DNA of 64,000 nt from Molossus alvarezi (Eukaryota > Chordata > Mammalia > Chiroptera > Molossidae): contig JBAWUJ010000092.1 of assembly GCA_037176705.1 (NCBI GenBank), positions 62,001 through 126,000 of the forward strand, in the 5' to 3' direction. Below are positions 14,205 to 37,078 of this stretch, one piece after another. The notes beneath the pieces were generated by a model. That model was not told the origin of the DNA and ran no database searches. It was given only the letters and a program-made list of their open reading frames with translations. The position numbers and the translations under genes are program-made. Numbering within the stretch: position 1 is the stretch's first letter; each line of letters opens with the position of its first letter.

Positions 14205-14296
14205 TCATCTCTGTAACGCCAAGAGGAAGATGGCCACGGGCCCCCAGAGCTGAGGGCGGGGCTGGCGAAGCACTCCACTGCCTGGCATCTCCACCA
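14205..14296 (-). pseudogene. MDGA1: MDGA1 exon 17 (GPI-attachment tail and stop), acceptor AG to AC
   Basis: The coding part reads VEMPGSGVLRQ and then QLWGPVAIFLLALQR, followed by TGA at 14205-14207. The hydrophobic C-terminus is the GPI-transamidase signal. At the expected boundary the intron ends GTCGCAC, not ..AG (bases 14298-14297). The exon 16 donor is GT, so a U12 AT-AC intron does not explain it. A cryptic AG inside the exon (GATGCCAG) would keep frame while losing four residues, so this lesion alone might be partly bypassed. Confidence 0.82.
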
Positions 14297-14357
14297 GTGC
14301 GACAGGAGAGAGGGGGACAGGCCAGGCGCCAGTCAGCTTGGAGGACCAGGGAGTAGT

Positions 14358-14381
14358 AGCAGGCAGGCAGGCAGGCAGGCT
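14358..14381. repeat. (GGCA)n microsatellite
   Basis: Five to six units of AGGC in intron 16, upstream of exon 17. Confidence 0.9.
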
Positions 14382-14477
14382 GTGGGAGGACCTGCTACTT
14401 TCTCCCCCTCTGGGGACCTGAAGGCAGACACAGACACACTCAGCACAGACTTAAGGTGTGTGGTGTGAGGGTTGACT

Positions 14478-14685
14478 CAGCCTGCGGGGTCCAAATCCTG
14501 GCTCTGTGACTCACTAAGAGCACTTTACTCAACCTCAGGGGGCCTCAATTTTCTCATCTGTAAAATGAATCTAATAGTCAGAGCTACCCCACAGGACTGT
14601 TTTGAAGATTGAATGAGCTCATGTTTTTGTATCTTGCCTGGTACATAGTAATTGCTCGGTAAACTTGAGCTGTTATTACTGCAAA
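14478..14685 (+). repeat. MIR
   Basis: Long sense copy: CTCTGTGACTCACTAAGAGC, CATCTGTAAAATGAATCTAA, and the tail with TTGCTCGGTAAAC. Confidence 0.85.
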
Positions 14686-14991
14686 CATCTGGCCCCTGGG
14701 GGAACACATGTTCACATCTGGACCCACACACACAGAGCTGTACCCAGACACAGGCACAGGAGACAGTCTGGTATGACAACAGCTAAGCACACTCACAGGA
14801 GGGCAGGGTCTGGTCTTCTCATCGCCCTACGTACACCCCACAGCCTGAGCCCAGTGTTCACCTCATCACTGACGCACAGCCTGTCACCCAGCCACTCTGA
14901 ACCCCCGTTCAGACCCAAAGACTCTCCTCCCTGGACATAGGTACCCACCCACGCAGCCCCCCACACATTCACCCCCTCTTTCTGTCTTCAC

Positions 14992-15100
14992 CTTTATTGG
15001 GATCCATCTGCTTCCAGGGACACTCTCCCTTCTTTAGCATGACATCATCTATGGCCATATCTCCCAGGTAGCCCAAGCCTCGAACCCCCTCAAATATAAT
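14992..15100 (-). CDS. MDGA1: MDGA1 exon 16 (end of MAM domain)
   Basis: This 109-nt exon has acceptor TACCCCAG and donor G|GTGAAG. Its 36 open codons read [16 protein letters not shown] to KQMDPNK. IDDV and GEC are the usual MAM C-terminal motifs. R to W in CPRKQ and T to M changes are CpG-type. Confidence 0.93.
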
Positions 15101-15313
15101 CTGGGGTAGGGTCAGAGAGCAGGGAGCAGGGCTTAGGGAGGTTCTGCCAGACAGACTGCCACCCCTTCCCCTCAGTGCCCCTGGAGCCCCCCAACACACA
15201 CCCCTGCCAGCTTCCCACCCGGCTCCCAGGAACACTAAGCCCTCCGGAGATTCCTGGCTGAGCAGCACTCAAAGGCCGGAGAGTCTCGGGAGCTTGGGGA
15301 CCGACAGACTCAC

Positions 15314-15444
15314 CTGGAAGGGCCCGCTGGGGTTGATGGGCACGTGGGCCTGCTGCCACACGTTGCCCTTATTGCCACTGAGGGACCAAGCGTGCGTGTC
15401 CAGGGCCCCTTTGTTCCGAGACCATACCAGGAGGTTGAGGGAGC
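15314..15444 (-). CDS. MDGA1: MDGA1 exon 15 (MAM domain)
   Basis: This 131-nt exon has acceptor CACCCAG and donor CAG|GTGAGT. Forty-three open codons in the ancestral frame read SLNLLVWSRNKGALD to VPINPSGPFQ. It belongs to the conserved MAM beta-sandwich. R to W in LLVRS is a CpG-type change. Intron 14, between this exon and exon 14, is 4.3 kb. Confidence 0.93.
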
Positions 15445-16899
15445 CTGGGTGGGTGTGAAGAGAGGGCCCAGTGAGGTCCGGACCAGGGCACCCTTCCCCT
15501 CCTCATTCCCCAAGCTCTGCTCTCCCACCGCTGCCCACAGCACTGTCCCTGTTAGACAGGACCTGTCCCCACCGCATACGGCTCAATGTCCCATTCTCCC
15601 GGGGCGGAGGGGAGGGGCGGCGATTAACACAGGACAGACAGGAACAGCAGCAGAGTTGGCAAATTTTCTTTCATTTCTTTCCTTTCTTCCTGATCAGCTC
15701 ATCTCCCCACCCAAACACACACACATGTACACGCACACACCACTCTCCGCCCTCCAGACAGGAAGCTGGTCCCAGGGTGATGGGGCTCACGCCTGCACAC
15801 ACGGCAGAACTCCAAAGCACGCAACGCAGACCCATGACATGTGGGAGGGTTTCTGGAGGTATGGCAATGGACCTCAACATTTTTAATACTTCTATGTATG
15901 TTTTACGAAGTGAATAAAGCTAGCACTTCAAACCCATGATTTCTCTAATAGTAATGCTTAAGACAAAGCTAAAAAAAAAAAGGGAATTAGTTGATTTAAA
16001 GAAAGATTAGTTTATGTGCCACACAACTATGGTAAAAAGAGTAACAGTAAAATTTTGGAGGCATTAGTCTGTGGGTGCTGAGCCCATTTGCCCACAGCCA
16101 CAGGGCCTGGCATTCTGGAGGTGCTGGGGACACTGGAGGAGAGGGGTCATGGCTCCACTACGCACCCAGACAGTGTCATGCCCTCTCCGCACTCTTCCAG
16201 CCTATCTGGAGCCCCCAGTGACATGACAGGCCTGGCTCAGAGGGAAGAGGAATCTACTTAAACGGTGCCTGGTGGCTGGCATTTCCACAGTGCTGCCCAC
16301 AGACAAAGCCACACCATCTGTGACACCAGATAGACAGACCCCTAAGGGGGAGAGCCACCAAATGGTACCTGCCTGAGATAAAAGGAGTTGGCTTGGACCA
16401 AAAAGAGCCCATGAAACAAGGTCTGGGGACAGCTGGTGCCCAGAACTGTGAGGTAGGGTGGGAGGGGAGGGGAGAGGAGGTATCAGGACAGCAAGAAACA
16501 CCCTCTTCCCCAGCAGCAGATCCAGGCCTGAGTAGGGGACCTACCAGCAGCTGGGGCCACGAGAGGGCAACCACCAGCACCCAGTGGGTCAGGAGGTGGC
16601 ACACTGACTTCAGCAGGGCTCAAGCCCCAAAACCTTCCGGCCTCCCCACCAGCCCTAAAGGGACCTCTTTTTCTTCCCCTTTCTGGAGATCTTTCCCTGT
16701 CCCTAGCCCCCTTGGGTCCAGCCTCATTCATACCTTTTTTCCTCTCGCACCACACTGCCCCGAGTATGCTAATGAGGGCACTCCACCTTTTCACTGTTCA
16801 ATTTGAATTTCAAACTGAATGTTCAAACTGAATTTCTGCCTCCTCCCCTGAGCACTACACTGACTCCAAGTTCTCCCCTGCTCAGAGGCTTCCTGATGG

Positions 16900-17345
16900 T
16901 CTTTCACAGAGACAGCCAGGCCCAAGACCTTCAGCCTCCCCTGAGGGAGGGTCTGCTCCCTGCATTCTTCCCTATGTTCCTCAGCTCCTCAAAGCCCAGT
17001 GGAATTGCACGCTGGAGCCTGGACATACTCAAGCTTTCCAGCCTCTGGACTTTTGCTGTTCCCACTGCTTGAGATGCCCTTCCCTACCACGTTCCCCTAG
17101 CCACATCCTTCTTGTGCTTCAAGGTCTCTCTGAAATGTCACCTCCTCTGAGAAGTCTTCCTAGGCTTGAGCTGGGAGTTCTCTATGCTTCCTGGGAACTC
17201 TGAGTCTAAACTGAAGCTCTCCAGGCCCAGCCCACACTCTGCGCAGTACGGCAGTTACTGGGATTTCCATTTACTCTTTCCCATGACTCCTGGAGGGAAA
17301 GTCTGCATCAAAATGCTATTGGTTCTCAATAATTAAATGCTGAAT
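16900..17345 (+). repeat. L2 3' region
   Basis: Typical L2 end: TTTGCTGTTCCCACTGCTTG, CCTCTGAGAAGTCTTCCTAG, ending near AATAATTAAATGCTGAATGA. Confidence 0.75.
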
Positions 17346-17439
17346 GAAGAATTGTTCACAACTGTCATCAGGAGTGAGAGGACTTTTATAGGATCTCAGG
17401 ATTAGAAGTTACCTTGGGATTTATCAAGTTCAGACCCCG

Positions 17440-17885
17440 TATCATCCATTCATTCATTCATTCATTCATTCATTCATTCATTCAACTAATTGAGCACCAC
17501 TCTGTGTCAGGCACTATTCTAGGCACTGGGGATACATCAGTGAATAGACAAGGACCCCTGCCCTCCTGGAGCTTGTGCTCTGTTGGTGGTCAGCATTCAA
17601 AAGAAAATAATTCAGGGAAGAGAATGAAGACTTATCTCAGATGGGGCTCTCAGGGACCTCTCTGAGGAGGCCTGAATGAAGGGAAGGGAGAAATGTTCCA
17701 GGCCAGGGGACATCATGAGCAAAGGCTTCTAAGGCAGAAACCTGCCTCAAGCACTTGAAGAAAAGCAAGGACACCTGTGTGATTGAGCCAATTGGTCGCC
17801 AGAGGAAGAGCAGCAGAAAACAAGGTCAGAGAAGCAGGCAGGGTCTGATCATGTAGGGGAGGCCTGGAGAGGATGGTGATGGAAC
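17440..17885 (-). repeat. L2 3' region with (ATTC)n tail
   Basis: Starts with a CATT/ATTC run (17447-17482), the reverse of the L2 TGAA-type tail, then TGTCAGGCACTATTCTAGGC and further antisense L2 sequence. Confidence 0.8.
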
Positions 17886-19284
17886 AGAGCCGGGAGTAGC
17901 CTGACGTGACAGGGGTCCCCTCCACAGCATCGCTGCAGTTCAGTCCTCCTGACCAGGGACAGGGCAGCACACATCTTTGCTGGGCACATCTGATACTCAC
18001 AGGGTCTTTTCAGCTAGAATCAAATCTTCCCCGGGGTGCTTTTGCTGATGGTTTGTTCCACCCCCCAAAACACCGACAAGCTCTTGAGCTGGCTGCTCCC
18101 AGACACCCTGGCATCCCAGCTCACAAGGCCTGATTTCCCAGGGCCCTACCGGACCCAATATGCTCCTCTTGGCAACTGGGTCTCCAGTGCCTCTCCTGAG
18201 TTGGGGATAAAATGACCAACTCTCCGAGTTGGCCTGCAATATGGGACTTCCAGTATAAATCTGGAACAGGTTGGGGCAAAGCAGAATCAGTTTGCATTGG
18301 TTACTGGAGCTGGGAAGCCACGTGGAAACAAGAGGTGGGGCAGAATGGGCAGTCCACCTCGTCTACCTCAGAAGAAGCTTCTCACAAAGCCTAGACCCAG
18401 CTGTGGGCAAACTGGTCAGTGTGGGTGACCTGGGGCCCTGGGGTTATAAGAACCTTTCATCCCACCCCAGTACAGTTTAGCAGTTCAGCTTAACCCATCA
18501 TATGACCTGCGGGAACTTCTCCACAATGAGCCTTTAGGTCCACACTTGCTTCAAGTCACTTCCTCTACTGAGCAGTCTTGGAGAACAACTAAGTGTTCTG
18601 TGGCCTGATGAGGCGGGGTCATCAAGATGCACAGTTCAGAGGGAGAACAAGGCTGAGAACAGTGTAATACTGGCTGGGGACAGTACATGGGCACTGCTTC
18701 TGTACGCATAAAGTATTTCTGGGCATTTCCCCAAATCTAGTACAATGATTGCCTCTGGAGTGGAGCTATAAGTGGCAGGAAGATGGGATGGGATGGACTC
18801 TCATCATGGCCCTTTTGTACCTTCTGACCCACGCAGAATACAGTACTTTCCCAATAAGTAAGGACACAAGCAAATGGATAAAAGTTTTTAAATTGTTAAT
18901 TCCTCAGCAGAGTCTTCTATATCCAGGCCTCAGAGTCGGTCCCTATCACCAGCTGTCTTGTTCCCTGTCCTCCTGCCACAGACACGTGTCACAGTGGCCA
19001 TTTGATTCTTATCTGGTACAATTAGTTGTTCATTGTCTGTCCCTCTAACTTGACTGTGGATGCCAAGAGCATGGGGAGCTTGTCCACGCGGTTATGGCAG
19101 CGCCTGGTGCAGGTCTCTGGAAGCAAAGGCTGCACTGGGGAGTCCCTGGTTCGTGTGATGCTCCTGCCGACCTGCCTCTTTCCAAGGGCTCTCCTCAGGT
19201 GCACACCCACACTCAGGAGGCAGGGCTTCCTCTCACTGCTCACAAAGCTCACCCTTCCAGCCCTTGTCTAGGGTTGGAGGAAGT

Positions 19285-19435
19285 CCGACAGGTTTGGGTT
19301 GCTGTGTGGTCTTGAGCAAATACTTAACCTCACTGAACACCTCCCTCACCTGGAGGCTGTAAGGGATAATAAGACCACAGGTGCAGAGCACCCAAGATGC
19401 CACCTGGCCCCTGGCAGACACTCAATACATGCGAC
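19285..19435 (+). repeat. MIR
   Basis: TGTGTGGTCTTGAGCAAATA, then the CCTGGCAGACACTCAATACA tail. Confidence 0.7.
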
Positions 19436-19717
19436 CTCTTAGCTGTTTTCTCCACTCCTTCCAGACCCTCATCTCATCCTACTGGAGCCATCTTCTCCCC
19501 AGACTCAGGAAGCCTTGATCATCTCAAAACCTCACAGGAGCTGGCTCTGGACCTCTCCCTTTGTGCAGATTCTGCCCACTCTCCCTCCAGGGATCTCTGA
19601 TTCAGCCAAGTTGGGAAATTCAGGCCACGCATGGGCAGTTCCCTAGCCTCCTGCGGACCCTTTGCCGCCCTCCAGCCCTGACACACACTGGGCAGACTAC
19701 CTGGTCCCCTGACTCAC

Positions 19718-19851
19718 CGATGTGTTTCCCATACAGTTGTAGAAGAAGGAGATGCAGTAGAACTTGGCACTGGCATTGTACAGGGGACTCACCAACTGTG
19801 CACGGTCCCCCAGCTCCCGGGGCCTTGAGGTCTCAATGAACATGTAGTAGC
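19718..19851 (-). pseudogene. MDGA1: MDGA1 exon 14 (MAM domain, middle), 1-nt deletion
   Basis: Acceptor CCTGCAG and donor G|GTGAGT are intact. The frame reads GYYMFIETSRPRELG to SAKFYCISFFYN, then shifts. The exon is 134 nt where a phase-1 to phase-1 exon of 135 is expected. One base is missing at about 19735/19736, where the family codes FYHMYGKHIG and this copy reads FYNCMGNTS. The shift would put exon 15 out of frame. Confidence 0.88.
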
Positions 19852-20175
19852 CTGCAGGGGAGGGGGGAATACAACAGCCTCCTCTTCCCCCCACCCAGAC
19901 CTCTTTCTCTGCCATAGTCTGGGCTGTATGAATACCAGGGGCCTTTCCCCAACACACCCCATCCTCCCTGCCTCATAGCAGGGGTTCCAGGCCAGTCTTC
20001 ATGAGTTCCTAGCTCTACTGAAGTTTCTCTTCTTCCTGATGCTCTGTTTGAATAGAGCTGTCTCCCCTCAGACTGGGGCTCCCTGAGGACAGGGCTATAT
20101 CTGTCCACTAGACTGGGGCTCCCTGAAGCTAGACTCTAACAGTCCTCTATCCCTAGCAGTAGGCCATGTCCTCAC

Positions 20176-20328
20176 CCTCAGGGGTGCCGCTGATGTCAGT
20201 AGGGGGATCCGTATTGGGAGAATGCTTGGGGTTCTGGGTTAAGGTGTTCTGCTGTGTCCAGTCAAAGTTGTCTGTCAGGTCCTGGGTGTAGCCACAGATC
20301 TTCTCATCCTCAAAGTGGCAGGTGTTGT
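20176..20328 (-). CDS. MDGA1: MDGA1 exon 13 (MAM domain, N-terminal part)
   Basis: This 153-nt exon has acceptor CATGCAG and donor G|GTGAGG. Its open frame contains [16 protein letters not shown], the signature start of a MAM domain with two cysteines, then DNFDWTQQN and ends DISGTPE. The length is as expected. R to Q (DWTRQ) and R to H (PKRSP) are CpG-type changes. Confidence 0.94.
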
Positions 20329-20479
20329 CTGCATGGGGTGGGAAGTGGGGGTAAGACAAAGAGGGTCAGCCTCCCGAGGTCCTCTTGTCCTGATTGGCCC
20401 TCCCTGGCCACCCCTGAGTGGGCCCAGGATTACAAGGCTTGAGAAACCAGGCCACAGGGCCCTGCTAATTTGTTCCCAC

Positions 20480-20990
20480 AACAGGACTTCTCAGCCTTTT
20501 GGTGCCACCACAGAGCCTCTGGCAACTACTGAAGCCTAAGGACCCATCTCAGAGTAATGATTTCAGATGCACAAAAGGAAACACAAAGGATTGCACAGAA
20601 AATCAGTTACATGAAGAGTTGTGAAATATATTTAAACAAATTTGTGTTACAATAAGTAGACTTCTTTATTATCTAACTAATTAAATCAGATCTAGCGCTA
20701 GGTCTAATAACTGCCGTGTTCTGAAACACCAAGGAATAGAAATGATATTGAGAGAGAGTGCAACAACTTTAAGGTGATGTGAAAACATCAAATTTCTGAT
20801 GACAAAATCACAAGTACTGATTACACTACTGTGGTTGGTTGTCTACTTTCATCATTGAAGGAGATGTTACACTTCTGCCAGAAGTTGGGGAAAAGAAAGA
20901 AGTGTATGCCCTTCCAGGTTCCAGATTCACAGACCCCCTAAATTCTGTACTCAGATCCTTTAGGAGTCCATGGATATCAGATTAAGGACA
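20480..20990. repeat. Ancient DNA-transposon-like repeat, family not assigned
   Basis: An AT-rich block between exons 12 and 13 begins CTTCTCAGCCTTTTGGTG and ends near CCATGGATATCAGATTAAGG. These resemble the ends of an old hAT-type element, by memory only. Confidence 0.45.
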
Positions 20991-21294
20991 TCTGCCCCAG
21001 AGAACAGGGATATGGACTGGCCTTTCTTTTGGGGACAGTGAGTGGTGATGAGTAAGGATGAAAGGCCGTGAGTTTGAGATGTCCCCCAACTCCACCCCTG
21101 TCCCCCACCTTTAAGACCCAGAATAAATTCTGGATGCAAACATCTCCAAGCCCAGCCCTGCTCCCTTCTGCTTCTCCTTCCAGCCACTGGCCTCCATCCG
21201 ATTTTCTTTCTGAGTATCTCTTCAGGTCCCTTCCTCCCACCAGGGCTGCTTCTGTGTCCCTACGGAGAAGGAAAAGTGGGTGGGAGTGTCTCAC

Positions 21295-21318
21295 CTGACA
21301 GATTGGGAGAGTTGATAG
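21295..21318 (-). CDS. MDGA1: MDGA1 exon 12 (24-nt micro-exon linking FN3 and MAM)
   Basis: The exon lies between acceptor CTTCTCAG and donor G|GTGAGA and encodes INSPNLS plus split codons on each side. It joins the FN3 domain to the MAM domain. Phase (1 to 1) and sequence match the family exactly, which confirms the gene model despite the tiny size. Confidence 0.9.
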
Positions 21319-21552
21319 CTGAGAAGGCAAGCAAGACAACCAAGTCAGAATCGAGTGGGGCTATGCAGAGGGTGCCCATGCTTAGGACCAAGGGGAGGGT
21401 CCCCAGAGCCAGGACAGGGAGCCAGAGGGGACTGGCCTGCAGTGACAGAGCAGGACACTGCATAGTGGGGAGCCCCAAGCTCAGGAACCATGTGGTGAGG
21501 GTGGTGGGGTCCCCTGGACATAGATGGGCCCACCCTTCCCACCACCACATAC

Positions 21553-21730
21553 ACTCTGTGTAGTGGATGATGCGAGAGGCCATGTCACCAGCTGCAAAGG
21601 TGGTATATGACGTGAGGCGGACCTCGTAGCTGTAGGGCACTCGGAGGTCAGTCAGGATGTACTCCAGCAGCTGCCCCTTCTCCACACGCTGCACTGGAAT
21701 GGCCTTCACCATGGCATTGTGCTGATTTAA
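21553..21730 (-). CDS. MDGA1: MDGA1 exon 11 (fibronectin III, second part)
   Basis: This 178-nt exon has acceptor TTGGCAG and donor T|GTATGT. Its 59 open codons run from LNQHNAMVKAIPV to SRIIHYTE, with the conserved FN3 tyrosine motif YSYEVRL. The length matches the family. Only a few residues differ from human as I recall it (for example R to Q in VRRVE). Confidence 0.94.
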
Positions 21731-21924
21731 CTGCCAATATAGGGAGTTCCCAGAGGCTAGGCAGGCCATGGCCTACGCCAGAGCACCGGCCCAGGCCCTG
21801 GTGTGACTTTGCAGGACAGCATCAAGGAGCAGGAAGAGGAAAGGACTAGGAAGCAGGCCTTAGTTCCTCCTCTGTGGGATGGAGCACTCACCCCTTCCAT
21901 GCCCACCTCTCAGGGCTGTCTTAA

Positions 21925-22110
21925 TAATAAGTGATAGCAACACACATCAAACACTTACTGTGTGCTAGGCACTAAATCCTTTGCAGTGATCAACTCATTT
22001 AATCCTCAAAATAATGGTCCTATGAGGCAGAATACTGCAATTTTACCTCCATTACACAGAAGAGGAAACAGACCACACAGACGTAGCTTGCCCACGTCCA
22101 TACAGAGCTG
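21925..22110 (-). repeat. MIR
   Basis: Antisense: ACTCATTTAATCCTCAAAAT, then CCATTACACAGAAGAGGAAA. Confidence 0.85.
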
Positions 22111-22550
22111 GATCCTAGCTTGGGCAGTCTGCCCAGAGTCACACCCTGTGGGCTAGGCAGAACCACATGGAATTAGGACACGAAACCAGCACATGGCTCT
22201 GGCCTTTCATTCTAGACACCCTGTGGGTGAGATGTAAGCTCATGCCTTAGGTTTCTGCCTTAAGCTTCTGATGTAAGAGTAAATTCTTTGTTTCATGAGC
22301 AGAGCTGACTCTGCATCCCTCCTGACCCCTGCCCAACTCTCAGGGCTGTGCCCAGAGCATGGGTCCAGAGGCATCAGTACCTAGCACCTCCCAGCTCCTG
22401 CTGCTGCTCCCAGAATACTTTCTGTCTGGCACTGAAGAGTTGTCCATAAGAAGGGTCAGTGTGTCCCAGCCCCATCTCCAACCCCTTTCCCTGGCTCCAT
22501 GAGCACCTCAGGGTCAGCTGACACTGGGGTCCCTTTCCCCCTTGGCCCAC

Positions 22551-22702
22551 CTGGCGGACACTGAGTCTGTAGTTGAGCACGGGTTCAACAGCACCAGGTT
22601 CCCTCTGCGTCCACTGCAGCACATAGGAGTAGTTCTTGGACAGCTTGTGGCTGTGGGTGGGATTGGGAATGTTGAAGTAAAACTCCGGGCTGTAGGCTTT
22701 GG
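22551..22702 (-). CDS. MDGA1: MDGA1 exon 10 (fibronectin III, first part)
   Basis: This 152-nt exon has acceptor CTCTTAG and donor CAG|GTGGGC. Fifty open codons read KAYSPEFYFNIP to NYRLSVRQ, including the FN3 tryptophan in VLQWTQRE. The exon ends in phase 0. The length is as expected. R to H in PTRSH is a CpG-type change. A polypurine block fills the adjoining part of intron 9. Confidence 0.93.
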
Positions 22703-22704
22703 CT

Positions 22705-23115
22705 AAGAGGGTGGGGAGGGGGCATGGGGCCATGAAGGGTGGGGGATGGGAGAGGGAGACAGAGAGGACAGAGTGGAACAGAAAGATGAGATGGGGAAAA
22801 CAGAAGGGAATATTGTGAGGAGAGGAAATGGGGAGAGGGTTTTGGGGAGAGTGAGGGTGGGGTAGCAGGGAAGGTGGGAGATGGAGAAAGGGAGATTGAG
22901 AATTCCAAGAGGTGGTGGTGGTGAAAATAGAGTGGAAAGGCCCAAGGTAAAGACAGCAGCGATATTGGAGAAGACTCAGGAAAGAGGATTGGAGGGAAGA
23001 CAGGAAGAGAAGGGCCAAGGAATTGAGGTAGAAGGAAAAGAAAACATAGGAGAGATAGAGGCAAAATGGTAGGGAAACAGGGGAAGTCTAGGAGAACAAG
23101 GGAGAGGGGGAGGAG
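22705..23115 (+). repeat. Polypurine (G/A-rich) block in intron 9
   Basis: About 400 bp in which nearly all plus-strand bases are G or A with many GGGG and GGAGA units. The minus-strand transcript would be pyrimidine-rich. Confidence 0.85.
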
Positions 23116-23837
23116 GTGGGAAATGTCACAGGGGCTTCTGGTGGCAGGGCTGGGGAGTGGCCAGTGACCTGTGGTGCTAGCCCCCTGTCCTTGAGAGAGG
23201 GGATCCAAACAAGAGTTAAAGGGGCACCCAGTCAATCTGGGGCTGTTGGAAGAGCTGGGAGTGAAGTGAAATGGGGGACAGGCATGCCTGGGGTTCTTCT
23301 AGGGGCACTGCCAACAGCTCTGACAGGGAACAGGCTCTCCCCAGTGGAGGAAGAGAGACAGGTTGGGCAACTCTGTCAGTCCCTCTTGGTTCTCCACGCC
23401 CCTCACCACCACCTCCAGGGCTCTCTGACCCATTCACTCTAGTCTGCAGTCCCATCAGCCCACCCAATTAGGACGATGAGGAGATGTAGCTAAGAGGGAT
23501 TTCTGCACACTTAGGGGCCTAAAACTCTAGAGTCTAGTGTGATAGCTCAGGAAATGTGTGCAGGTCAGCCCAGCACCCATGTGGTTCTACAGACACTGTT
23601 GAGGGGTGACTTCTCTCCCTTAAGTTACAGCTCAGGCCCCTCAAATTGGGCCTGCAGTCCAAAAAAGAGCAGGTTCCCCATCCCTAGTCTCCCGGACCAA
23701 GGACAAAGGAAGTGGGGCTTGAAACTTGAGGAGACTCCTCAGTTGTGCGGACTTAGAGCCTTGAGTGGGTGGATCTAAACCGGGTGTGGGCGGGGCTGGA
23801 GGGACCACCTAAAAGGGACACATGGAGTGGCTGTCTC

Positions 23838-23952
23838 TTGCAGGCCCAAGGTCGCGGAACAAACCGCCGTACATGCCCTTAGCGGGAACCGAATCAGGGT
23901 CCCTCTGGACTGCAGGCTGACGCTCTAACCGCTGAGCCAAACCAGCCAGGGC
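23838..23952 (-). repeat. VES SINE, 5'-head fragment
   Basis: The minus strand starts GCCCTGGCTGGTTTGGCTCA and continues through the tRNA-like box with GGTTCCCGCTAAGGGCATGTAC. It is truncated after the head and is a bat-specific tRNA-derived SINE. Confidence 0.85.
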
Positions 23953-24365: not shown

Positions 24366-24609
24366 CAGAGACCTGGAAAAGGCAGACAGCGGAGACCTGC
24401 TGTCGCGAGTGGCAGCGTCGAGGCGAAGCTCGGAGTGGTAGGAGGCCTCGGCGGCGGCGGCGGAGGCAGCAGCTGCCCTTTGAAGCGCCATAGGGCCGAG
24501 GCCATGCGCTGGGGGCTGCCTCGGAGGATCCAGCAGCTCAGGAGCACGGGTCTGGCCAGAGCCTGGCGCACATCCTGAAAGCTGGGCTCCACCTCCACCT
24601 CCAGTGGGA
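24366..24609 (-). pseudogene. MDGA1: MDGA1 exon 9 (Ig6), two deletions and frameshift
   Basis: The exon has intact splice sites (CCCCCAG; G|GTGAGC) but is 244 nt against an expected 285. The start reads EVEPSFQDVRQAL, after a 6-nt in-frame EV duplication, and continues through LLSCWILRG and WRFKGQLLPPPP. About 13 nt are missing in the CCG tract at 24450-24466, after which the ancestral reading (SELRLDAATRDS) continues in another frame. About 34 nt are missing near 24382-24398, removing the YEC motif with the second Ig6 cysteine. The net change of -41 disrupts the frame. Confidence 0.88.
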
Positions 24610-24892: not shown

Positions 24893-25138
24893 GGCCCTGG
24901 CTGGTTTGGCTCAGCGGTTGTCATGGTGGCCTGCGGTCTGGAGAGACCTGGGTTCCTTCTCGCTAAGGGCACTGCCTCGGTTGCAGTTTGTACCGGCCCT
25001 GGTTGGGTCATGTGGGTGGCAACCACTCCATGTGTCCCTTTCACGTCATGTCTCTCTCTCTCTCCCTCCCACTCTATCTGAACAAAAAAAAAAAAAAAAA
25101 AAAAAAAAGCCCTCGGGTGAGGATAAAAAAGAAAAAAG
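24893..25138 (+). repeat. VES SINE, full length, with target-site duplication
   Basis: Head GGCCCTGGCTGGTTTGGCTC, body with CTCTCTCTCTCC, A-run (25084-25108) and tail CCCTCGGGTGAGGAT. It is flanked by a perfect 10-bp repeat AAAAGCAGCA at 24883-24892 and 25139-25148, showing insertion by L1-type target-primed reverse transcription. Confidence 0.93.
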
Positions 25139-25154
25139 AAAAGCAGCATAACAT

Positions 25155-25403: not shown

Positions 25404-25701
25404 ACTGCACGTTCAGCTGCACCTGGGCCCCCCGGGGGCGCACGTTGAAGCCATTATAGCCAGCCGCCTGGCAGTGGTAGGTCCCACTCATGTCGCGGCT
25501 CACGCACTCCAGCCACAGCTTCCCATCCGGCATCTCCTCCAAAGGCAGCCCCGAGGGCAACAGAGCAACCTCCTTGTCCACGCAGGACCTGCGCACAGGC
25601 GGCCGCGGCTTGCCCCGCACCTCCCGCTGCAGCTCGGCAGGCGAGCCTTCGTGCACAGTCACCACGGCCTTGCCCTTGGGCACGCTGATGGGGGGGTGGC
25701 A
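25404..25701 (-). pseudogene. MDGA1: MDGA1 exon 8 (Ig5), +1 frameshift and lost Ig core residues
   Basis: Acceptor CCCCCAG and donor T|GTGAGT are good, but the exon is 298 nt. A phase-1 to phase-1 exon must be a multiple of three, and 297 is expected. The extra base lies in a run of seven C (25690-25696) just after the acceptor. Further on, the frame reads ISVPKGKAVVTV. The first Ig5 cysteine is replaced by arginine (CGG, 25624-25626) and the core tryptophan by arginine (AGG, 25588-25590). The second cysteine (YHCQAA) remains. R to C, W and H changes are frequent here. An Ig fold without its disulfide and tryptophan would be unlikely to be stable. Confidence 0.9.
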
Positions 25702-26560: not shown

Positions 26561-26788
26561 TGCCCAGTTTGGTTCAGTGGTTAGAGGGTCATGGGTTCAA
26601 TCCCCAGTCTAGAGCACATACCTCAGCTGTAGGTTCTATTCTTGGCCCCTGTGCAGGAAGCAGCCAATCAATGTGTCTCTCTCAAATTGATGTTTCTCTC
26701 TCTCTCTCCCTCCCTGCCTCCCTCCCACTGTATCTAAAAATCAATGGAAAATATCCTTGGGTGAGGATTAAACAATATAATTTTTAAA
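26561..26788 (+). repeat. VES SINE, older copy with 18-bp duplication
   Basis: Diverged head TGCCCAGTTTGGTTCAGTGG and tail TATCCTTGGGTGAGGATTAA. Flanks at 26543-26560 and 26789-26806 match at 16 of 18 positions, so an old insertion. Confidence 0.9.
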
Positions 26789-27949: not shown

Positions 27950-28185
27950 ATGGCTGGGATCAGGCTCTGAAGGCAGACTGCCTGAGTTCAAATCCCAGCT
28001 CCACCACTTACTGTGTTACCTTAGGTAAGTTTTTTAAACTCTCTGAGCCTGTTTCTTTATCTCTAAAAATTGAAGATAAATTACCCCATAAGGTAAATCA
28101 TGAACTTGAATGAGATAAACACAAAATCATCAGAATATATAGTAAATATTCAATCAATGTTAGCATTATTATTTCATTATTGTTA
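27950..28185 (+). repeat. MIR
   Basis: CTGCCTGAGTTCAAATCCCA, TTACTGTGTTACCTTAGGTA, and the tail ATATTCAATCAATGTTAGCA. Confidence 0.85.
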
Positions 28186-28194
28186 TTTATCACT

Positions 28195-28620
28195 GGAACA
28201 GAGACTCAATTCCCCTGCATAATGTGGCCCCTACTGACCTCTCCACCCTCATCTCACTCCATTCTCCCAGCCACACTCTCCTCCTTCAGTTCTACAAATG
28301 GCCCACACACTTCCCTGACTCAGTGCCTTTTCACACGCTGGCTTCTTGGCTTCCCTTCCTGTTCCATCCTACCTTGCTCTCCTTTGTCTAGTAAAACCCT
28401 GCCCCTCCTCAGATGTCAGATTGAAGTCTACCTTAGAAAATTCTTTCCTGATTCTCATGTATCGCAGTTTGCAGTGACATATTTATGAGACTATCTAAAA
28501 ATGTTTGCCTTCCTACTTAGTCCAATGAAGGCATAGTCTATTTTGCCCACCACTCTACTCCAGCACCTAGCACAGTGCCTGGCATGTAACAGGTGCTTAA
28601 TAAATGTGTGTGGCATGAAC
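28195..28620 (+). repeat. L2 3' region
   Basis: TAATGTGGCCCCTACTGACC, CAGTGCCTTTTCACACGCTG, and the end CTTAATAAATGTGTGTGGCA. Confidence 0.8.
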
Positions 28621-28730
28621 TAATGGCGTTTCTCCACTGGAACCTCCCTTCCCCAAGCTTCTGCCCCACCTCCCCTCCTTGGGGCTCTTCAGCCCCCTCT
28701 CACCTCCCTGCTGCCCCTCCAGCTGCTCAC

Positions 28731-29060
28731 CTGTCTCAGAGGAGATGTTGACCTCAATGCTCAGGTCAGGTACAGGTGCTCCTGGGAAGGAAGCCACACA
28801 CAGGTAGGTGCCGTAGTCACTGAAGTTGAGGTCAATGAGCTCTAGGCTCCTTGTGACAGCAGGCAGCTCAGGGTCGTTTTGGGTCACTAGCAGTCTCTTG
28901 GACATGCATGCCGGCTTGCCATTCTTGAACCACTGGTAGGTCACCTTCTCCTGGGGCACCACATCCACATGGCATGACAGCTTCAGGTCCTGGCCCAGCT
29001 GTATATTCTCACTTTCTTTGATCACGTCTGGGGTGATCTGGAACATGGCATTCTTCATGG
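28731..29060 (-). CDS. MDGA1: MDGA1 exon 7 (Ig4)
   Basis: This 330-nt exon has acceptor CTGCAG and donor G|GTGAGC, with 109 open codons from MKNAMFQITP to VNISSET. The Ig4 cysteines are in LSCHV and YLCVAS, and the tryptophan is in YQWFKNG. This is the longest intact exon and is close to the human sequence. Changes include R to C in GKPARMS and R to Q in VTRND, both CpG-type. Exon length matches the family exactly. Confidence 0.94.
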
Positions 29061-29309
29061 CTGCAGGTAGATGGGGAGGGGAGGGTGGCTGGTGCTGGCC
29101 CAAAGCCAGGATCTATGTCCCACCCCTACCCACACCCAGCTCCTCCCCTCAAAGTGGCCCTCCTGCAAGTTGGGAGCTACACCACCACTGCCACCACAAG
29201 AAACCATCATTTTGCTTGGAAATTGCTCTGCTGGTTTATATGTGTTTTTAAGAGTTCAAAAAAGCTTGTTGTAGAAAAGTGGGTTTAGTAATGAAGAGCA
29301 TCACTGCTG

Positions 29310-29485
29310 ACTGAACATACACTATGTGAGACACACTGTTCCAAGCACCTTACACCAGTTCATTCATTTAACTCACCCCACAATCTGTGAGGAAGGTACT
29401 CAGTGTCCTCATTCTACAGGAGGAACTGAGGCTCAGACAGTTTAATTCAGAGCCTATGCTCTTAACCACTATACTGCCTTACTTG
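29310..29485 (-). repeat. MIR
   Basis: Antisense: CACTGTTCCAAGCACCTTAC, CATTCTACAGGAGGAACTGA, CTCTTAACCACTATACTGCC. Confidence 0.85.
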
Positions 29486-30454
29486 TATTCTTGTTTTAAA
29501 CCTTGAATGAACAAAATACAAATTTTGGAAGGATGCATTAGAATGTAACACTGGTTTTATCTAGACACAGTGGGTCTGAGAAGAATTGAGGAAATTTTAA
29601 TTTGCACATTTTACCCTTTTGTGCTATTTAACTCTTGGCAGCAAGTTTGCGTTGTTTTTATAATAAAAGCCCAATGCAATAATTTTACACGTACTTACAT
29701 TAAAACACAGAGATTAGGAAGAAAAGGGTCTAACCTCTTTCAAAAATCTAACTATTGTTTGACATAATCCAAGAGTTAGAACTCTTAATACTGGAGGCTA
29801 ATTGGACAGGGCACTGGTACTACAGCCATGAACCAGAATTGGGTTGAGCAAAGCAGGCTCTATGTCACCATAGAAAATGACCATAAGTTTCTGGTGTAAA
29901 CTGAGATCTCATCAACTTGGGTTTTAAAGGCTAAATAAAAACAGGTGGAGAAAAATAATCTTCTGATGGGAAAAGTACTATTAAGGGAAAAAATAGTCAT
30001 CAGCTAGCCACAATCTTGCTACTCTCTTGCTTTGATTAGGTAAAATATTATAGAGAACTAGCTTCTTCTTGTAAGGAGAGTCAGAGGAAGACTGGTCAGT
30101 GAAAGATCAACAACAAAATGTGTTCCTTTCTTCAAAAGACTCTGAGTCAAATTCGGCAGAAGCTATACTTTACTTTCAAATGCTAAAGAGCTGGTAACAT
30201 ACTGTATATTTAAATATGTATATAATAAACAAACTACCTAATAGCTACACAAGCAGAAGAATTTAAAGTCTTCTCCTCAAAGCAGAAAATCAAGATCATA
30301 TCAAGCAGCTAATGCTAACTACTGAGGCTGAGATTTAGTAAGAAAAGTGTTGTACTTCTTTAGATCATACTCCAAGTTTTTTCTATCAATTTACATTTAA
30401 TAATTATCTTCAGACTCACTGAAATGCTTTGCTAGTAAAGATTTACATATGAGC

Positions 30455-30705
30455 CATAATTGGTTTGGCTGAGCAGTTGGAGCATCAACCTGTGGACCGA
30501 AGGGTCTTGGGTTTGATTACCAGTCAAGGGCATGTACCTGGGTTGTGGGTTTGATCTCCAGCTCTGGTCGAGGTCATGCGACAGGCAACCAATTAATGTG
30601 TCTCTCTCACATTAATGTTTCTCTCTCTCCCTCCCTCCTTTCTACTCTCTCTGTGAAAATCAATAAAAAAATATCCTCAGGTGAGGATTAACAACAACAA
30701 CAACA
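30455..30705 (+). repeat. VES SINE
   Basis: Head ATTGGTTTGGCTGAGCAGTT, B-box-like GGGTTTGATTACC, TTTCTCTCTCTCC body, tail ATCCTCAGGTGAGGATTAAC followed by AAC repeats. Confidence 0.88.
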
Positions 30706-31136
30706 CAAAGGAATACACATGAGGTATGTGGAAATGTGTGTTGTTTTCACTTTAACTTTGTGTACAAAAAGAAAGCTAAGAAATATCTCCTGAAGACTGG
30801 AAGTCTATATTTAGCTTTTTGCAACCTCAGTTTACCAATCTAAAAAAAATGTAGGTACTCAATACCAGCCTTTCCTACCGATAGGATTGTTGAAGTTATA
30901 TTCGGAGATGTAGATTGTAAATTGTAAATGAAACTTTACACAAATTTTAATCCTGCCATCTTCTGGCAGACACTTGAATTGCAGGAAAATAAAAGTGCCT
31001 AGAACATAACCTCCTGAGTTTACCTCACCTACCAAGAGGAAGCAGACAGGACCCTCTCCCATTTTATTTGTAGTTCCTGGAGGACAGGGACCCTGTCTAC
31101 CTCTGAGTTCCCTCCCAACCTTTGGGAGCCACATAC

Positions 31137-31406
31137 ATCACACCAGCAGGTTGACGGTCTTCTTGCCGGGGTTGCCCACATTGTTGGTGGCTGTGCAGTT
31201 GTAGTAGCCAGAGTCCAGGGCCTGAGCTGAAGGGATGCTGAGGGTGCCACCCTGGGCCAGAGCCCCCAGGGGCAGCAGGCCCGGCCCATGGGACCACTGC
31301 AGTTGGGGGAGGGGACTACCGCCTGTCAGAAGACACTGCACCGTCACATTCTCCCCAGGGTTCACCACCAGAGTTTCATTCACAGACAGCTTCAGGGCTG
31401 GTAGTG
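31137..31406 (-). pseudogene. MDGA1: MDGA1 exon 6 (Ig3), terminal CGA to TGA stop
   Basis: This 270-nt exon is flanked by TCTTAG and T|GTATGT. It encodes a complete, well-conserved Ig3: LPALKLSVNETLVV, first cysteine in VQCLL, tryptophan in LQWSHG, second cysteine in YYNCTAT, ending KKTVNLLV. The last complete codon is TGA (31138-31140), where the family has arginine, a simple CpG transition from CGA. The exon length is exactly the expected 270, so the alignment leaves no room to avoid the stop without changing the donor. Confidence 0.9.
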
Positions 31407-31658
31407 CTAAGAGGACAAAGAGGTGGGATCTTAGGGGACTATGAGGCAGGGCTGAATGTGGGGATATGGGGAGCTGGGAAAACCATGGGGTTAGGGAAGG
31501 ATGGTGGAGAAGAGAGAGGGGGAGAAGGCAGAGAGCGGGCAGAGGGGAGGAGGAGGCACTAGCGGTGAGTGCCTAGAGTCCTGAGTGGGTCGGGACACTG
31601 TCTCCTGATTGGGGAGTCAGCTCAGGTGGGCGAGGGTATGGGGGGGAAGTGCCTATAC

Positions 31659-31779
31659 CCGTGGTGTTTGCAAGCCAGAAAGCGATGGCCTTGTTGGGGA
31701 TGCATACAGACACTTGGCAGGTGTAGCTGGCATAGTCCTGGGGTCGAAGGTTCTTCAGCTTCAGGACCTTGGTCTACCC
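31659..31779 (-). pseudogene. MDGA1: MDGA1 exon 5 (second half of Ig2), in-frame stop and 12-nt deletion
   Basis: After acceptor TGCCCAG the phase-0 reading is GGG TAG ACC, so codon 2 (Glu in human MDGA1 as I recall it) is a stop at 31774-31776. The rest still reads TKVLKLKNLRPQDYASYTC, keeping the second Ig2 cysteine. At about 31704/31705 four codons are missing between QVSV and CIPNK. The exon is 121 nt against an expected 133. The following residues are unusually diverged (AIAFWLANTT). The donor is G|GTATAG. The TAG could itself act as a second acceptor six bases downstream and remove the stop, but exon 6 has its own stop. Confidence 0.88.
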
Positions 31780-32589
31780 CTGGGCAGCAGTGGACCACTG
31801 GTGTTAGGGGTTTGCTTGGGTCTCCAGACATCCCTCACATATTTACCCAGGCAGAGGCTAAAGTAAATTTCTGTTCTAATTTCTATCTTTCCCAACCTCC
31901 ACACCATTTATCCCCAGGGAGCCTGAGTCTGGGGGGATGCTCTCCAACCCTGAGTTTTTCTGGGTCTAAGGCTGCCCTGGTGCATACTGGCCAGAGCCAG
32001 GCCTCTGTTTCTCCACTTTGGGAAATAGAGTGGTAAGAAGGGGGCCCTGTCCTGTCTTGCAACCCACACAAATGTGGAGCTGGCCCTACAGGCATGGCCA
32101 CCTGTGACACTCAGACAGCCACCTAGGAAAGCCACCTTTGAAAGCCCTCCCTGGTAGGATGACTTCATCAGCATTTGGGACTGTAGGGGACCTATGGGAA
32201 ATAAAGGGATTTCTCTGCCCCAACTCCTGCAGTGCCTGCCCATGGATTCTCAATACTATGACAGCCAGCAGCGAGCAGAGATGGCTTGCCTGACTCTAGG
32301 GGATGCATTTCCTAACTGGCAATGTTCCAGAAGGACATGTTGCCCTGGGGACTCTCCCTCCCCATCACTGTTCCCTGAGCTTTCTGTATCAATTTTGTCT
32401 GCACCATGGTGTGTGAAGTCCAACGAGAACGCATGCTTCCGATATCAGAACATACTGTTTTAGCCAGAGCAGTCCCAGGAACTCCAGATGGTAAGGCCTC
32501 AGCCCCCTGCCCCCCTCCCTTGTTGGGCACAGGAGGAAGAGTGTAGAGTGAGCCATGATGAGACCAGGCCAGCTACTGCCCATCCTGAC

Positions 32590-32786
32590 CTGGGTGTAGA
32601 GGGGCTCATAGATGTCGACTCCATTGTCCTGGCTATGGGGCAGGGTGTCGGAGCCCCACTTCCAGATGTAGCGGGCAGGTGGGTTGGAGTTGACAGTACA
32701 ATGCAGGAACACCGTCTTCTTCTGGTAGAAGTTGCCTCGAACATCACTCACTGTCTGGTGCACCATCAGCACCGGCTTGTCCAGGT
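32590..32786 (-). CDS. MDGA1: MDGA1 exon 4 (first half of Ig2)
   Basis: This 197-nt exon has acceptor TTGCAG and donor CAG|GTCAGG. With the T carried over from exon 3 it encodes 66 codons, starting YLDKPVL and ending YEPLYTQ in phase 0. The first Ig2 cysteine is in FLHCTV and the core tryptophan is in YIWKWG. The frame is open. R to H beside the cysteine and R to W in the C strand are CpG-type changes. Ig2 is the main neuroligin contact in working MDGA proteins. Its second half lies in the broken exon 5. Confidence 0.93.
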
Positions 32787-33014
32787 CTGCAAGGGCACAG
32801 CCCCAGTGGAGTCAAGACTGGGTGATCCCAAGGAGGTGAGAGCTTGGGCTTCTCGTAGCAGCCTCAGGGAAAGCTGAGCCACTCTCAAGGATGCTTCCGG
32901 AAAGCCAGATGCTCTCCTAGCCCTGCAAGCTTGACCTTTAGAATTAGGGAACTGGACTTGATGCCTGCATAGGGTTGTCTATCTTCACCTTCCCATCATG
33001 GGATGGAGGAAGCA

Positions 33015-33140
33015 ACTGCAGACTGGAAATTAGGAAACCTGGTTCAAATCCCAGGCTAGCTATCAATTTGTAGTGTGACCTGCTTAAGTCCCTTCTCTGC
33101 CTGTTTCCTCACTGGTAAATTGGACTAGATTGGCAGTTCT
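33015..33140 (+). repeat. MIR fragment
   Basis: CTGGTTCAAATCCCAGGCTA, then the TTTCCTCACTGGTAAATTGG core. Confidence 0.75.
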
Positions 33141-33535
33141 CACCCCTGTTTGCACAATAGAATCACATGGAGATTTTCTTTTTAATATTGATGTCTGGAA
33201 GAGCTCATTAATGGTGTCAGAAATCAAAAGAGTGATTGCCTCTGAAAAGATTACTGACTGGGAGGGGGCATGAGGGAACTTTCCAGGGTCCGGTAAATTC
33301 TCTTGAACTGGATGGTGTTAACACATGCTTATGTAAGACTTCATTAAACTGTACAGGTAAGATTAGTGCACTCTATTGGATGCAAATTAACCCTCAATTT
33401 TAAAAAGTCCCAATGTCGGGGCCCCACCCCCAATCAATTACATCAGAATCTCTGAAAGTAGGACCCAGACATAAGTATTTTTTAAAAGGCTCCCGTAGAG
33501 ATTCTAATGTGCAACCAGGATTGTGAACCAAAGGC
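33128..33535 (+). repeat. MER5-type DNA transposon split by a later insertion
   Basis: The left part (33128-33180, GGCAGTTCTCACCCCTG) and right part (33418-33535, GGGGCCCCACCCCCAATCAA) fit a MER5-like element. About 235 bp between them resemble an L1-type 3' fragment. Confidence 0.6.
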
Positions 33536-34099
33536 ACCGACATTCCACATTCAAACATTCTAAAAGGATGTTCCGACATCCCAACATTCTGTCCTCCTTC
33601 CACAGCCCACTTAGATAGAAACCATTACCAAGGTTGTGGGCAGAGGTGGGCATTGCTGAAGTCCAGGCCATGCCGGCCAGCCCCTTCCAGCACCAATAAC
33701 TCAAGAAGTAACCCTCAGCCCCAGGGTTTGGGAGACCCCTGGGTGGCTGATGGGGGACAGAAGAGAGGGCCTGGGGTTCCATTGCTCACCACTCTGTTGG
33801 GCACCAAAGGGGAGCATGAGGGATAGGTTCATGGCAAACATGGTAGACATTAAGATGGTATAAGGCCCTTGGGCCTGGCCCCACAGGAGCTGGGTACCTG
33901 GGTCAGCCAGGCTAGGCAGAGGTGGGTGGCAAGCAGGGATACAGCCTCTTGGGGTTAAGGGAATATCCGTGGGGGTCAGGTAGGCACTGGGGGCTTCCCA
34001 CTCAAGCAGCAGCAAGGACTGAGGGGTGCTTGCTCCTGCACTGGGTGGGGTAAGAAAGTTTCAGAGCTGCCCCAGGACAAAAGCAGAGGCATGAGGTAC

Positions 34100-34265
34100 T
34101 GTGGGAAGGGCACTGGACCATAATGAAGACACTTATGCCAGTGATCAAATCTTAAGCCCTCGGTACCTTAGTTTCTTCATCTGTGCAATGGGTATGATCC
34201 AGCCTGTTCTGCCATCCCTGCTCACTTTGCAGGGATGTTGCGAAGTTCATATGGAATTACAGATG
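34100..34265 (+). repeat. MIR
   Basis: GTACCTTAGTTTCTTCATCT followed by GCAATGGGTATGATCC. Confidence 0.75.
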
Positions 34266-34509
34266 GGAATGTGTGAGTGTCCTCGGGCAGTACAAGTCGG
34301 AGATGCAGCAGCGATTTCCCTCTCCAGCATGGAAGAGGGAGAGTCTCTACTATCCTCCCCGGAGGTGTCGGTTCTCCATCGCACTCCACTCACACTCCTC
34401 CTTCCCAGCCTGAGCCCCTGGGCGCCTCCCTGGGCCAGGACGGACAAGAGATGGGGCGTGCAGGACATACAGGTCTAGGCCAGGAGGGACAGGAGGGGGG
34501 CCGACTCAC

Positions 34510-34684
34510 ACTGCACGTCCATGCGGATGGACTTGATGGCGGGCGCGCCCACGCTGTTCTCCGCCTTGCAGTAGTAGCTGCCGCCCTGCTTGCACGCCAT
34601 GCGCTCGATGCGCAGCGTCTCATTGAACACGGATGTCTTCTGGAACTTCTCTGACGCGCTGCCCACCGTCTTGGTCCACCGCAC
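34510..34684 (-). CDS. MDGA1: MDGA1 exon 3 (second half of Ig1)
   Basis: This 175-nt exon (58 codons plus one base) is flanked by CTGCCAG and T|GTGAGT. It starts VRWTKT, with the core Ig tryptophan. It contains YYCKAEN with the second Ig1 cysteine and ends IRMDVQ. The frame is open. Roughly ten of 58 residues differ from human MDGA1 as I recall it (for example R to C, R to S, G to S). That is high for a protein this conserved in mammals and fits relaxed constraint. In a working gene this domain takes part in neuroligin binding. Confidence 0.93.
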
Positions 34685-34914
34685 CTGGCAGGCAGGGCTG
34701 CGCAGATTCAGACCCCGCAGTGAGGGTGGGGTATCCTCCAGGCTGAACCCTGCAGTGCGTCTCCCCTCCCACCCCCATGATTTTTCACAAGCTCACGTGG
34801 GGTATACACAGACCTGGGAAATAAACCCAAACAGACTTGTGAAAATGCGCAGGCAGGGTAGGACGCCTTAGCCAAGAGCCTGGGGAATCGGGAGTCAGAT
34901 GGATAAGGCTTTAA

Positions 34915-35085
34915 AGAAAGCAGTATGAGCAGTGGTTAGGAGCCAGTGGTTGTGGGCAAGTTACCCAACCTTTCCTGACTTCCTTTCCTCATCCATAAAA
35001 TGGAATATAACCCCCCTCTTAGGGTTACTGGGAGGGTTAAATTAATGTATATTTAGTGCCTGGAAAACTAAGCTTACTCATCTCT
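34915..35085 (+). repeat. MIR
   Basis: TGGGCAAGTTACCCAACCTT, CATCCATAAAATGGAATATA. Confidence 0.8.
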
Positions 35086-35574
35086 CGGCTTCAGATTTCT
35101 CATCTATGCAAGAGGTCTATGTGGTAGCCGACCTCCGAGGTGGCCCTGCCTCCTGGTATCCAAACCTTTCTGTAGTCCCCTCCCACTCTGTACCAGGGAT
35201 GGTCTGCATGACCAATAGAACATGGCAGGGGTGATGTATGTTTCCAATATCAGGTTATCAAAGTCTGTGATCCCCCCCACCATAGTTGCTTTCTCAGGTC
35301 ACTCGCTCTGGGAAAAGCCAGATGTCATGTCATGAGCAACCCTCTGGAGAGGTCCAGGGGGAGGAAGGGAAGCCTCAGTCAACCACACGGAAGTTGGCTT
35401 GGAAGGGGATCCTCCATCCCCACAGTCCTCAAATGACTGGTGAGAGACCCTGAGCCAGCAGCAGCCAGCTCAGCCACTCCGGGATTCCTATCCCACACAA
35501 ACGTGAGACAGTGTTTTGTTTTAAGCCCCTAAATTTTGGAGCATTTGTTATGCAGCAATAGATAACTATAACTG

Positions 35575-35700
35575 TTATGGAGCATAATACCCACTTTGCA
35601 GGGTCATTGTGATGTTTAGAAACAAAGTATGTAAAGCACCTAAGTGTGGGGTCTGTTATATATGAGTTACTCAATAAATGTCTATTATTATTAGCATTGC
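35575..35700 (+). repeat. MIR 3' half
   Basis: CACTTTGCAGGGTCATTGTG, then AGTTACTCAATAAATGTCTA. Confidence 0.75.
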
Positions 35701-36613
35701 CACAGATTAGGGGACACTATCAAGGATCACACAAGAAACTGGAGTTACTATTCAAAGTATCAGAGGTTTAAGAAAACTGATCAGTTTCAGGTTACTGAAT
35801 CCTAAGGATTGGAGGATGAGGTAGGGAAGCTTCCATCTTAAAGTTGAGAAGTACTGCTTGTTACTGAGATGGGGCAAGCCCTGATCATGGTGAACAGGTT
35901 AGGCCATAGGTCATAGGTGAAAGGGCACCTTCTCATGCAGGGAGGAGCCACTGCAGGCCATAATGTTGCTACTCCCATCCCCTCAACACTCCTAACTTTA
36001 CCTTCATGGACTTAGAGCTTACAAAACTTGGGGAAAGACAAAGGCAGTTTTAGGTAATCCCTACTTAGACCAGAGGGTGCTTTGGAGAAAGAACAAGGCC
36101 ATGAAAATATTTTTACTTTTTGTACCTGACTTTTGTGGTTTTAACATAATTGCCTAGATGGGGTTTGTTTACATACTGCTTAGGACATGATTTGCTTTAT
36201 CCATTTGAAGGCTGAAGAAACTGGTCCTTGGAGGGACTTGGACTACTTGAACCTCAGGGCCAGTAGTATGAATGCATGTGTGGAGGGGATACGAGTTAAG
36301 GCCACAGAACCGTCTGTGGCATCTTTCTTCAAGTTTACAAAATTCTCAGCCCTTAATTTTTTAATTATTGCTTTCTCTCTGTTATCTTTAGTCTCTACTA
36401 GAACACCTAGGTTTATGTTGTAGCTTCTCATTCTATCCTCCTGTCTCCCAACTTCCTTTTCATGTCTCCATCTCTTTGTTTTCTCCAGTCTGCATTGTGG
36501 CTTATTTCCTCAGATCCAGCATCTAATTCATTAATTTTCTCTTTAGTTATCTCTGTGGTATTAAGGCCAAATTTTTCAAAAATTTATTTTGTTTTCTAGG
36601 ATTTCTATTTACT

Positions 36614-36656
36614 TTTTTTTTTATATCTAACTGATCAGGTTAGATATAAAAAAAAA
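36614..36656. repeat. Perfect AT-rich hairpin
   Basis: Two 18-nt arms (36614-36631 and 36639-36656) of T9-ATATCTAAC and its exact complement around the loop TGATCAG. Confidence 0.95.
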
Positions 36657-36938
36657 CGGTGCTGAAGGTGTATCTGAGGATGTGTCTGCTAACAGACATG
36701 ACGGAGTGAGATCAAATGACTGACATTCAGGTTTTCCCCTTGGTCATTTATGTTCTCAGGTGAATAACCCTGCAGCCCCCAGCCTTCCCCAGAGTTCATT
36801 TTCAACTATTTCCCAACCCCATCTCCTATCTTCTCTGTATTTGCCATTGTTGACTCCAGTCCCCAGCTCTGATCCCAGAGTGGAGTGGGAGGGAGAAGTG
36901 AGGTCAAGAGGGGCCGCACAGGTTGGATAGGGGTTTAC

Positions 36939-37078
36939 CTGGGGCCTCGGTTGCCCGGTGACAAGGCACTGCAGCACGAGGGGGTCACCCTCATGGATGG
37001 TGTAGACGCGCTCACTGATGTTGTCCTCTTTCACCACACATACCTGGCCTACGTGGATGATCTGGGCCTGGGCTGGGG
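36939..37078 (-). CDS. MDGA1: MDGA1 exon 2 (N-terminus of mature protein, first half of Ig1)
   Basis: This 140-nt exon encodes 46 codons after two phase-1 bases. Its acceptor is CTTTGCAG and its donor is CAG|GTAAAC. The product begins PAQAQIIHVGQ and ends VTGQPRPQ. The first Ig1 cysteine is in the LQCLV motif and an N-glycosylation-type NIS site lies upstream. The frame is fully open. Compared with human MDGA1 as I recall it there are a handful of substitutions, including R to H in the TIREG segment. Exon 1 (signal peptide) should supply the first base of the split alanine codon but is not in the window. Confidence 0.93.

Follow-up and report, generated by a model that had tools for sequence, protein, structure and literature searches.

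Passages of PMC5563082 describe MDGA1 as binding neuroligins in cis through its first three immunoglobulin domains (Ig1-3), in competition with neurexin. How this bears on inhibition is disputed in the portion of PMC11405390 drawn on here: in MDGA1 knock-out CA1, GABAergic transmission was weaker, not stronger, the opposite direction to an earlier study cited there, which reported enhanced perisomatic inhibition. We analyzed a 64,000-nucleotide (nt) stretch of the genome of the bat Molossus alvarezi (assembly GCA_037176705.1, contig JBAWUJ010000092.1, positions 62,001 to 126,000; hereafter the window), in which a preliminary description, made from the sequence alone, had reported an MDGA1 pseudogene. 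The same description held that MDGA1 restrains inhibitory synapses, which is too simple a statement: the earlier report agrees with it, and the weaker GABAergic transmission in knock-out CA1 speaks against it (both as given in PMC11405390).

We find that the MDGA1 copy in the window is almost certainly dead. Its introns are in place, it carries several lesions and its constraint is relaxed, the combination looked for in a unitary pseudogene, and we favor, with a probability of roughly 0.68, the reading that this locus is the MDGA1 of the animal itself, which was inactivated and has since decayed neutrally.

Results

The gene was mapped by tblastn, using a provisional human MDGA1 protein sequence as the query, followed by direct reading of every exon and splice site. 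This exon-by-exon reading placed MDGA1 exons 2-17 in order on the minus strand, from 37,078 to 14,205, with introns retained, and bore out both the sixteen recognizable exons claimed previously and their end positions. It was tied to two solved structures, PDB 5oj2_A (chicken MDGA1, nearly full length) and 5xeq_B (Ig1-3). The former was by far the best match over the whole length (1461.6 bits, with residues 1-886 of the 915-residue reading aligned), and the latter matched with 593.1 bits. The 5xeq chain, which we take to be human MDGA1, is contained letter for letter in the provisional human protein; beyond Ig3 the human sequence remains provisional, as is the mouse MDGA1 that serves as a control below. 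Pfam matches in the reading comprised Ig families and MAM, while fn3 gave no Pfam match in the reading and FnIII was located through the alignment to 5oj2 instead. The end carrying the glycosylphosphatidylinositol (GPI) signal matched only the provisional human protein. The full domain set of MDGA1 (Ig1-6, FnIII, MAM and GPI signal) is therefore found in one gene; an open reading frame for the protein is not, six inactivating lesions interrupting it.

Most exons are open. On the minus strand, like every feature of the gene given below, lie exon 2 (Ig1 start; 36939..37078; 140 nt, with splice sites present), exon 3 (Ig1; 34510..34684; 175 nt), exon 4 (Ig2; 32590..32786; 197 nt), exon 7 (Ig4; 28731..29060; 330 nt), exon 10 (FnIII; 22551..22702; 152 nt), exon 11 (FnIII; 21553..21730; 178 nt), exon 12, a mini-exon (21295..21318; 24 nt), exon 13 (MAM; 20176..20328; 153 nt), exon 15 (MAM; 15314..15444; 131 nt) and exon 16 (MAM end; 14992..15100; 109 nt), all without an interruption of the frame. 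Splice phases are consistent from exon to exon, the lesions excepted, with GT donors at the introns and AG acceptors everywhere except at exon 17. The exon 5 donor (31650-31658) reads GTATAGGCA, without the customary A at +4 and G at +5, and is possibly another weakened splice site.

The remaining exons carry the lesions. Two in-frame stops stand at positions where human 5xeq and chicken 5oj2 share the same residue: a TAG at 31774..31776 in exon 5 (Ig2; 31659..31779; 121 nt), opposite Glu (residue 195), and a TGA at 31138..31140 in exon 6 (Ig3; 31137..31406; 270 nt), opposite Arg (residue 327). Because the TAG could also serve as an acceptor 6 nt downstream, where splicing would remove the stop in frame, the exon 5 stop is the weakest of the lesions and is not decisive alone. 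Three further exons have lengths that break phase, as judged against the provisional human protein and, for chicken, PDB 5oj2_A. Exon 8 (Ig5; 25404..25701) measures 298 nt versus an expected 297 (human) or 294 (chicken), the additional base falling within or next to the C run at 25,696-25,690. Exon 9 (Ig6; 24366..24609) measures 244 nt versus 285 (human) or 270 (chicken), a net loss of 41 nt relative to human, in which a deletion takes the Ig6 F strand including its Cys and two residues are gained near the exon start. Exon 14 (MAM; 19718..19851) measures 134 nt versus 135 in both species and is one base short near 19,738-19,733. Finally, exon 17 (14205..14296), which carries the GPI signal and the stop codon, has lost its acceptor, AC standing at 14297..14298 in place of the expected AG; the nearest AG upstream lies about 40 bases off, before a pyrimidine stretch.

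The lesions thus fall into three classes (nonsense, phase-breaking length change and splice) and extend from 31,776 to 14,297, about 17 kb. The preliminary description had listed six inactivating changes, namely two in-frame stops, three phase-breaking exons of 298, 244 and 134 nt and one lost acceptor, and had noted their different classes and their 17-kb spread; on direct reading of exons 5, 6, 8, 9, 14 and 17, all of these prove real and the lengths exact. Together with near-neutral decay of the codons between the lesions, the three classes lend strong support to its claim of a pseudogene.

That decay provides a test independent of any single lesion. Among residues identical between human and chicken, 66 of 705 readable ones are altered in the window (68 of 707 when both stops are included), whereas the provisional mouse MDGA1 control changed 15 of 728. 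Losses are concentrated at Arg, with 18 of 43 changed versus 50 of 664 for other residues (Fisher p = 5e-9); Arg codons often contain CpG. Of the 68 changes, 65 are one step away, 50 are compatible with a transition and 30 with a CpG transition. Restricting the comparison to Ig1-3, with only the window and the PDB chains, gave 28 window-unique versus 3 human-unique changes (Tajima chi2 20.2, p = 7e-6). Over the same domains the window differs from human at 36 of 302 positions and chicken from human at 35 of 308, about equal distances. Over the full length, against the provisional human sequence, 66 changes are unique to the window versus 9 unique to human, the corresponding figures for the provisional mouse sequence being 15 versus 9. 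By exon, with the mini-exon left out, the change rate runs from 1/34 (exon 15) to 9/54 (exon 3). On these comparisons the codons between the lesions change almost as if unselected.

Further damage falls on structural and contact residues. In exon 3, Arg105 (chicken numbering), to which PMC5563082 assigns a putative salt bridge with neuroligin-1, has become Ser (34577..34579); its partner Arg123 is retained, as is Tyr107. A four-residue (12-nt, in-frame) deletion in exon 5, near 31,705/31,704, affects the Ig2 FG loop in the region of chicken Cys222, which is bonded to Cys36 and keeps Ig1 and Ig2 in line (PMC5563082); a Cys remains, shifted, at the damaged loop. Exon 8 has lost two conserved Ig5 residues, Cys463 (25624..25626) and Trp475 (25588..25590), each replaced by Arg. 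Across the 29 Cys and Trp positions common to human and chicken, these two are the only replacements, and another two fall in deleted columns, in the Ig2 FG loop and the Ig6 F strand.

Unselected change with CpG hypermutation was then simulated from a proxy start sequence. At 0.02-0.03 substitutions per site (d) and a CpG factor of 10, the simulation gave 35-51 non-Arg changes among 664 (50 observed), 10-14 Arg changes among 43 (9.7-13.5; 18 observed), 2.7-3.6 stops (2 observed) and 1.2-1.9 hits among the 62 splice bases (1 observed). One neutral dose of about 0.02-0.03 substitutions per site roughly reproduces changes, stops and splice hits together, with Arg changes running a little higher, and the dose would be a little lower once the changes expected in a working bat gene are subtracted. 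The mammalian neutral rate is 2-2.5e-9 per site per year; combined with the fitted dose, this rate suggests a rough age for the decay of about 8-15 million years, to be read as an order of magnitude.

Elsewhere, the window holds copies of one short interspersed nuclear element (SINE): the copy at 30462-30700 is matched by seven other stretches (40312-40545, 60182-60345, 26660-26771, 63277-63504, 63880-63924, 24993-25136 and 23869-23943). By their appearance, they are presumably tRNA-derived, Ves-like bat SINEs, in keeping with the bat named in the preliminary description. A GGTGAGGAT tail is present on 6 of 7 copies inspected, and the copy at 40,303-40,571 retains several CpGs, so that it looks young. 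Downstream of the MDGA1 3′ end, 5629-6200 is a degenerate CA-rich tandem repeat of about 570 bp with units of 12, 14 and 144 bases; upstream of exon 2, a short tandem array of AGGCCTTAGGTCATT units occupies 42487-42544. Rfam, at the gathering threshold, found no RNA genes in the window.

Discussion

Several observations count against a unitary pseudogene or against the account of its decay given above. Changes are rarer at conserved sites (66/705) than at variable ones (30/169). Because conserved sites changed less, the gene was under selection before it decayed; constraint acted on it for much of the lineage, a pattern that fits a recent loss and, equally, a recent duplicate. Arg loss (18/43) exceeds the prediction at d 0.02-0.03 and CpG factor 10, and is nearly matched at CpG factor 15 with d 0.03, or at factor 10 with d 0.04. 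The start sequence of the simulation is itself a proxy built from the window. Neither exon 1 nor the promoter turned up within the window: tblastn with the provisional human protein gave no match to exon 1 there, and upstream of exon 2 there is no stretch with GC >0.58 and an observed/expected CpG ratio >0.5, for which reasons exon 1 probably lies beyond the window. Lastly, no neighboring gene was recognized in the flanks, where 106 open reading frames of at least 90 residues were read by eye only, with no Pfam scan of them; the human neighbors of MDGA1 are CCDC167 and ZFAND3.

The alternative that survives best is a decayed segmental duplicate, in which a block bearing MDGA1 was copied, the copy in the window died and an intact MDGA1 persists elsewhere. 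From within, a multi-exon copy with its introns is indistinguishable from a unitary loss, and the modest decay suits a young duplicate. The conservation of MDGA1 (35/308 differences between human and chicken over Ig1-3) also makes it plausible that a working copy was kept. The copied block, however, would have to include at least the 23-kb stretch of exons 2-17, and the window bears no sign of duplication, its flanks not having been tested for one. We regard this explanation as possible but unlikely.

It is very improbable that the gene retains its function by way of a truncated or alternatively spliced product, such as a secreted Ig1-Ig2 fragment or a transcript that skips the broken exons. 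Exons 2-4 precede the first stop and are indeed open, and the exon 5 stop might be avoided through the TAG acceptor 6 nt downstream. These exons are nevertheless no better conserved than the others (21 of 160 residues changed versus 47 of 547 elsewhere; Fisher p = 0.09), so that no short isoform appears protected, and Arg105 is lost within them. Nor can the exon 6 stop, the three phase breaks and the lost last acceptor be bypassed by one splice change.

Still less credible is the idea that the gene is intact and that the lesions are errors of sequencing or assembly. Two lesions alter exon length by a single base, in one case at a C run, and these are typical of such errors; the stops, the splice base change, the 12-nt in-frame loss and the net 41-nt loss do not follow an error pattern. 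The same holds for the 66 further changes at conserved residues; of the 68 obtained by adding the two stops, 30 are of CpG-transition type. With substitutions and multi-base deletions dominating, sequencing error was rejected as the main cause. A processed retrocopy was also rejected, as it had been in the preliminary description, because introns are retained between all sixteen exons.

Under the favored reading of a unitary pseudogene, any transcripts from the inactivated locus would be degraded, or would yield a truncated, unanchored fragment. MDGA1 would then be missing from the postsynaptic membrane as a competitor of neurexin for neuroligin binding, and its loss would free neuroligins, presumably chiefly neuroligin-2 at inhibitory synapses. 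We hold it nearly as probable as the reading itself that this bat lineage lost MDGA1 entirely at some time in roughly the last 8-15 million years and controls its inhibitory synapses without it, perhaps with MDGA2 or an altered neuroligin-2 taking over. Elsewhere, from birds to mammals, this brake on neuroligin signaling is well conserved. If the loss is unitary, it would constitute a natural knock-out of a synapse organizer in a wild mammal. It would let one ask what MDGA1 is required for, where mouse studies disagree on whether inhibition is strengthened or weakened, and would raise the question of whether MDGA2 or the neuroligins changed in step.

Gene loss in bats is a known kind of event. 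As described in the main texts consulted, the losses of LRRC70 and IL36G (PMC8075899) and those of fruit bats (PMC5865188) likewise concern genes in place that carry stops, frameshifts and splice lesions. PMC8075899 confirmed its losses in further species and the lesions in PMC5865188 are common to several species, whereas the MDGA1 lesions come from a single window. Neither paper mentions MDGA1 in its main text (0 occurrences). Among the papers listed in our literature searches, titles and the starts of abstracts pointed to no MDGA1 loss in bats, with supplements and most subscription papers outside those searches; PMC4683706, the one match for MDGA1 with echolocation, concerns subterranean rodents, judging by its listing.

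The mouse Mdga1 knock-out, as presented in PMC11405390, offers a second comparison. Adults without MDGA1 were studied there, and for this reason a natural loss of MDGA1 is conceivable. The mouse allele differs in being engineered, and studies disagree on whether it raises or lowers inhibition (PMC11405390).

The closest known relatives of the window gene are the solved MDGA1 chains 5oj2, from chicken, and 5xeq. It has the same order of Ig and MAM domains, and its GPI-signal exon is recognizable against the provisional human end. Unlike 5oj2 and 5xeq, it has two stops, breaks phase three times, lacks one acceptor, is without a continuous frame, and has lost core residues of Ig5 and Ig6.

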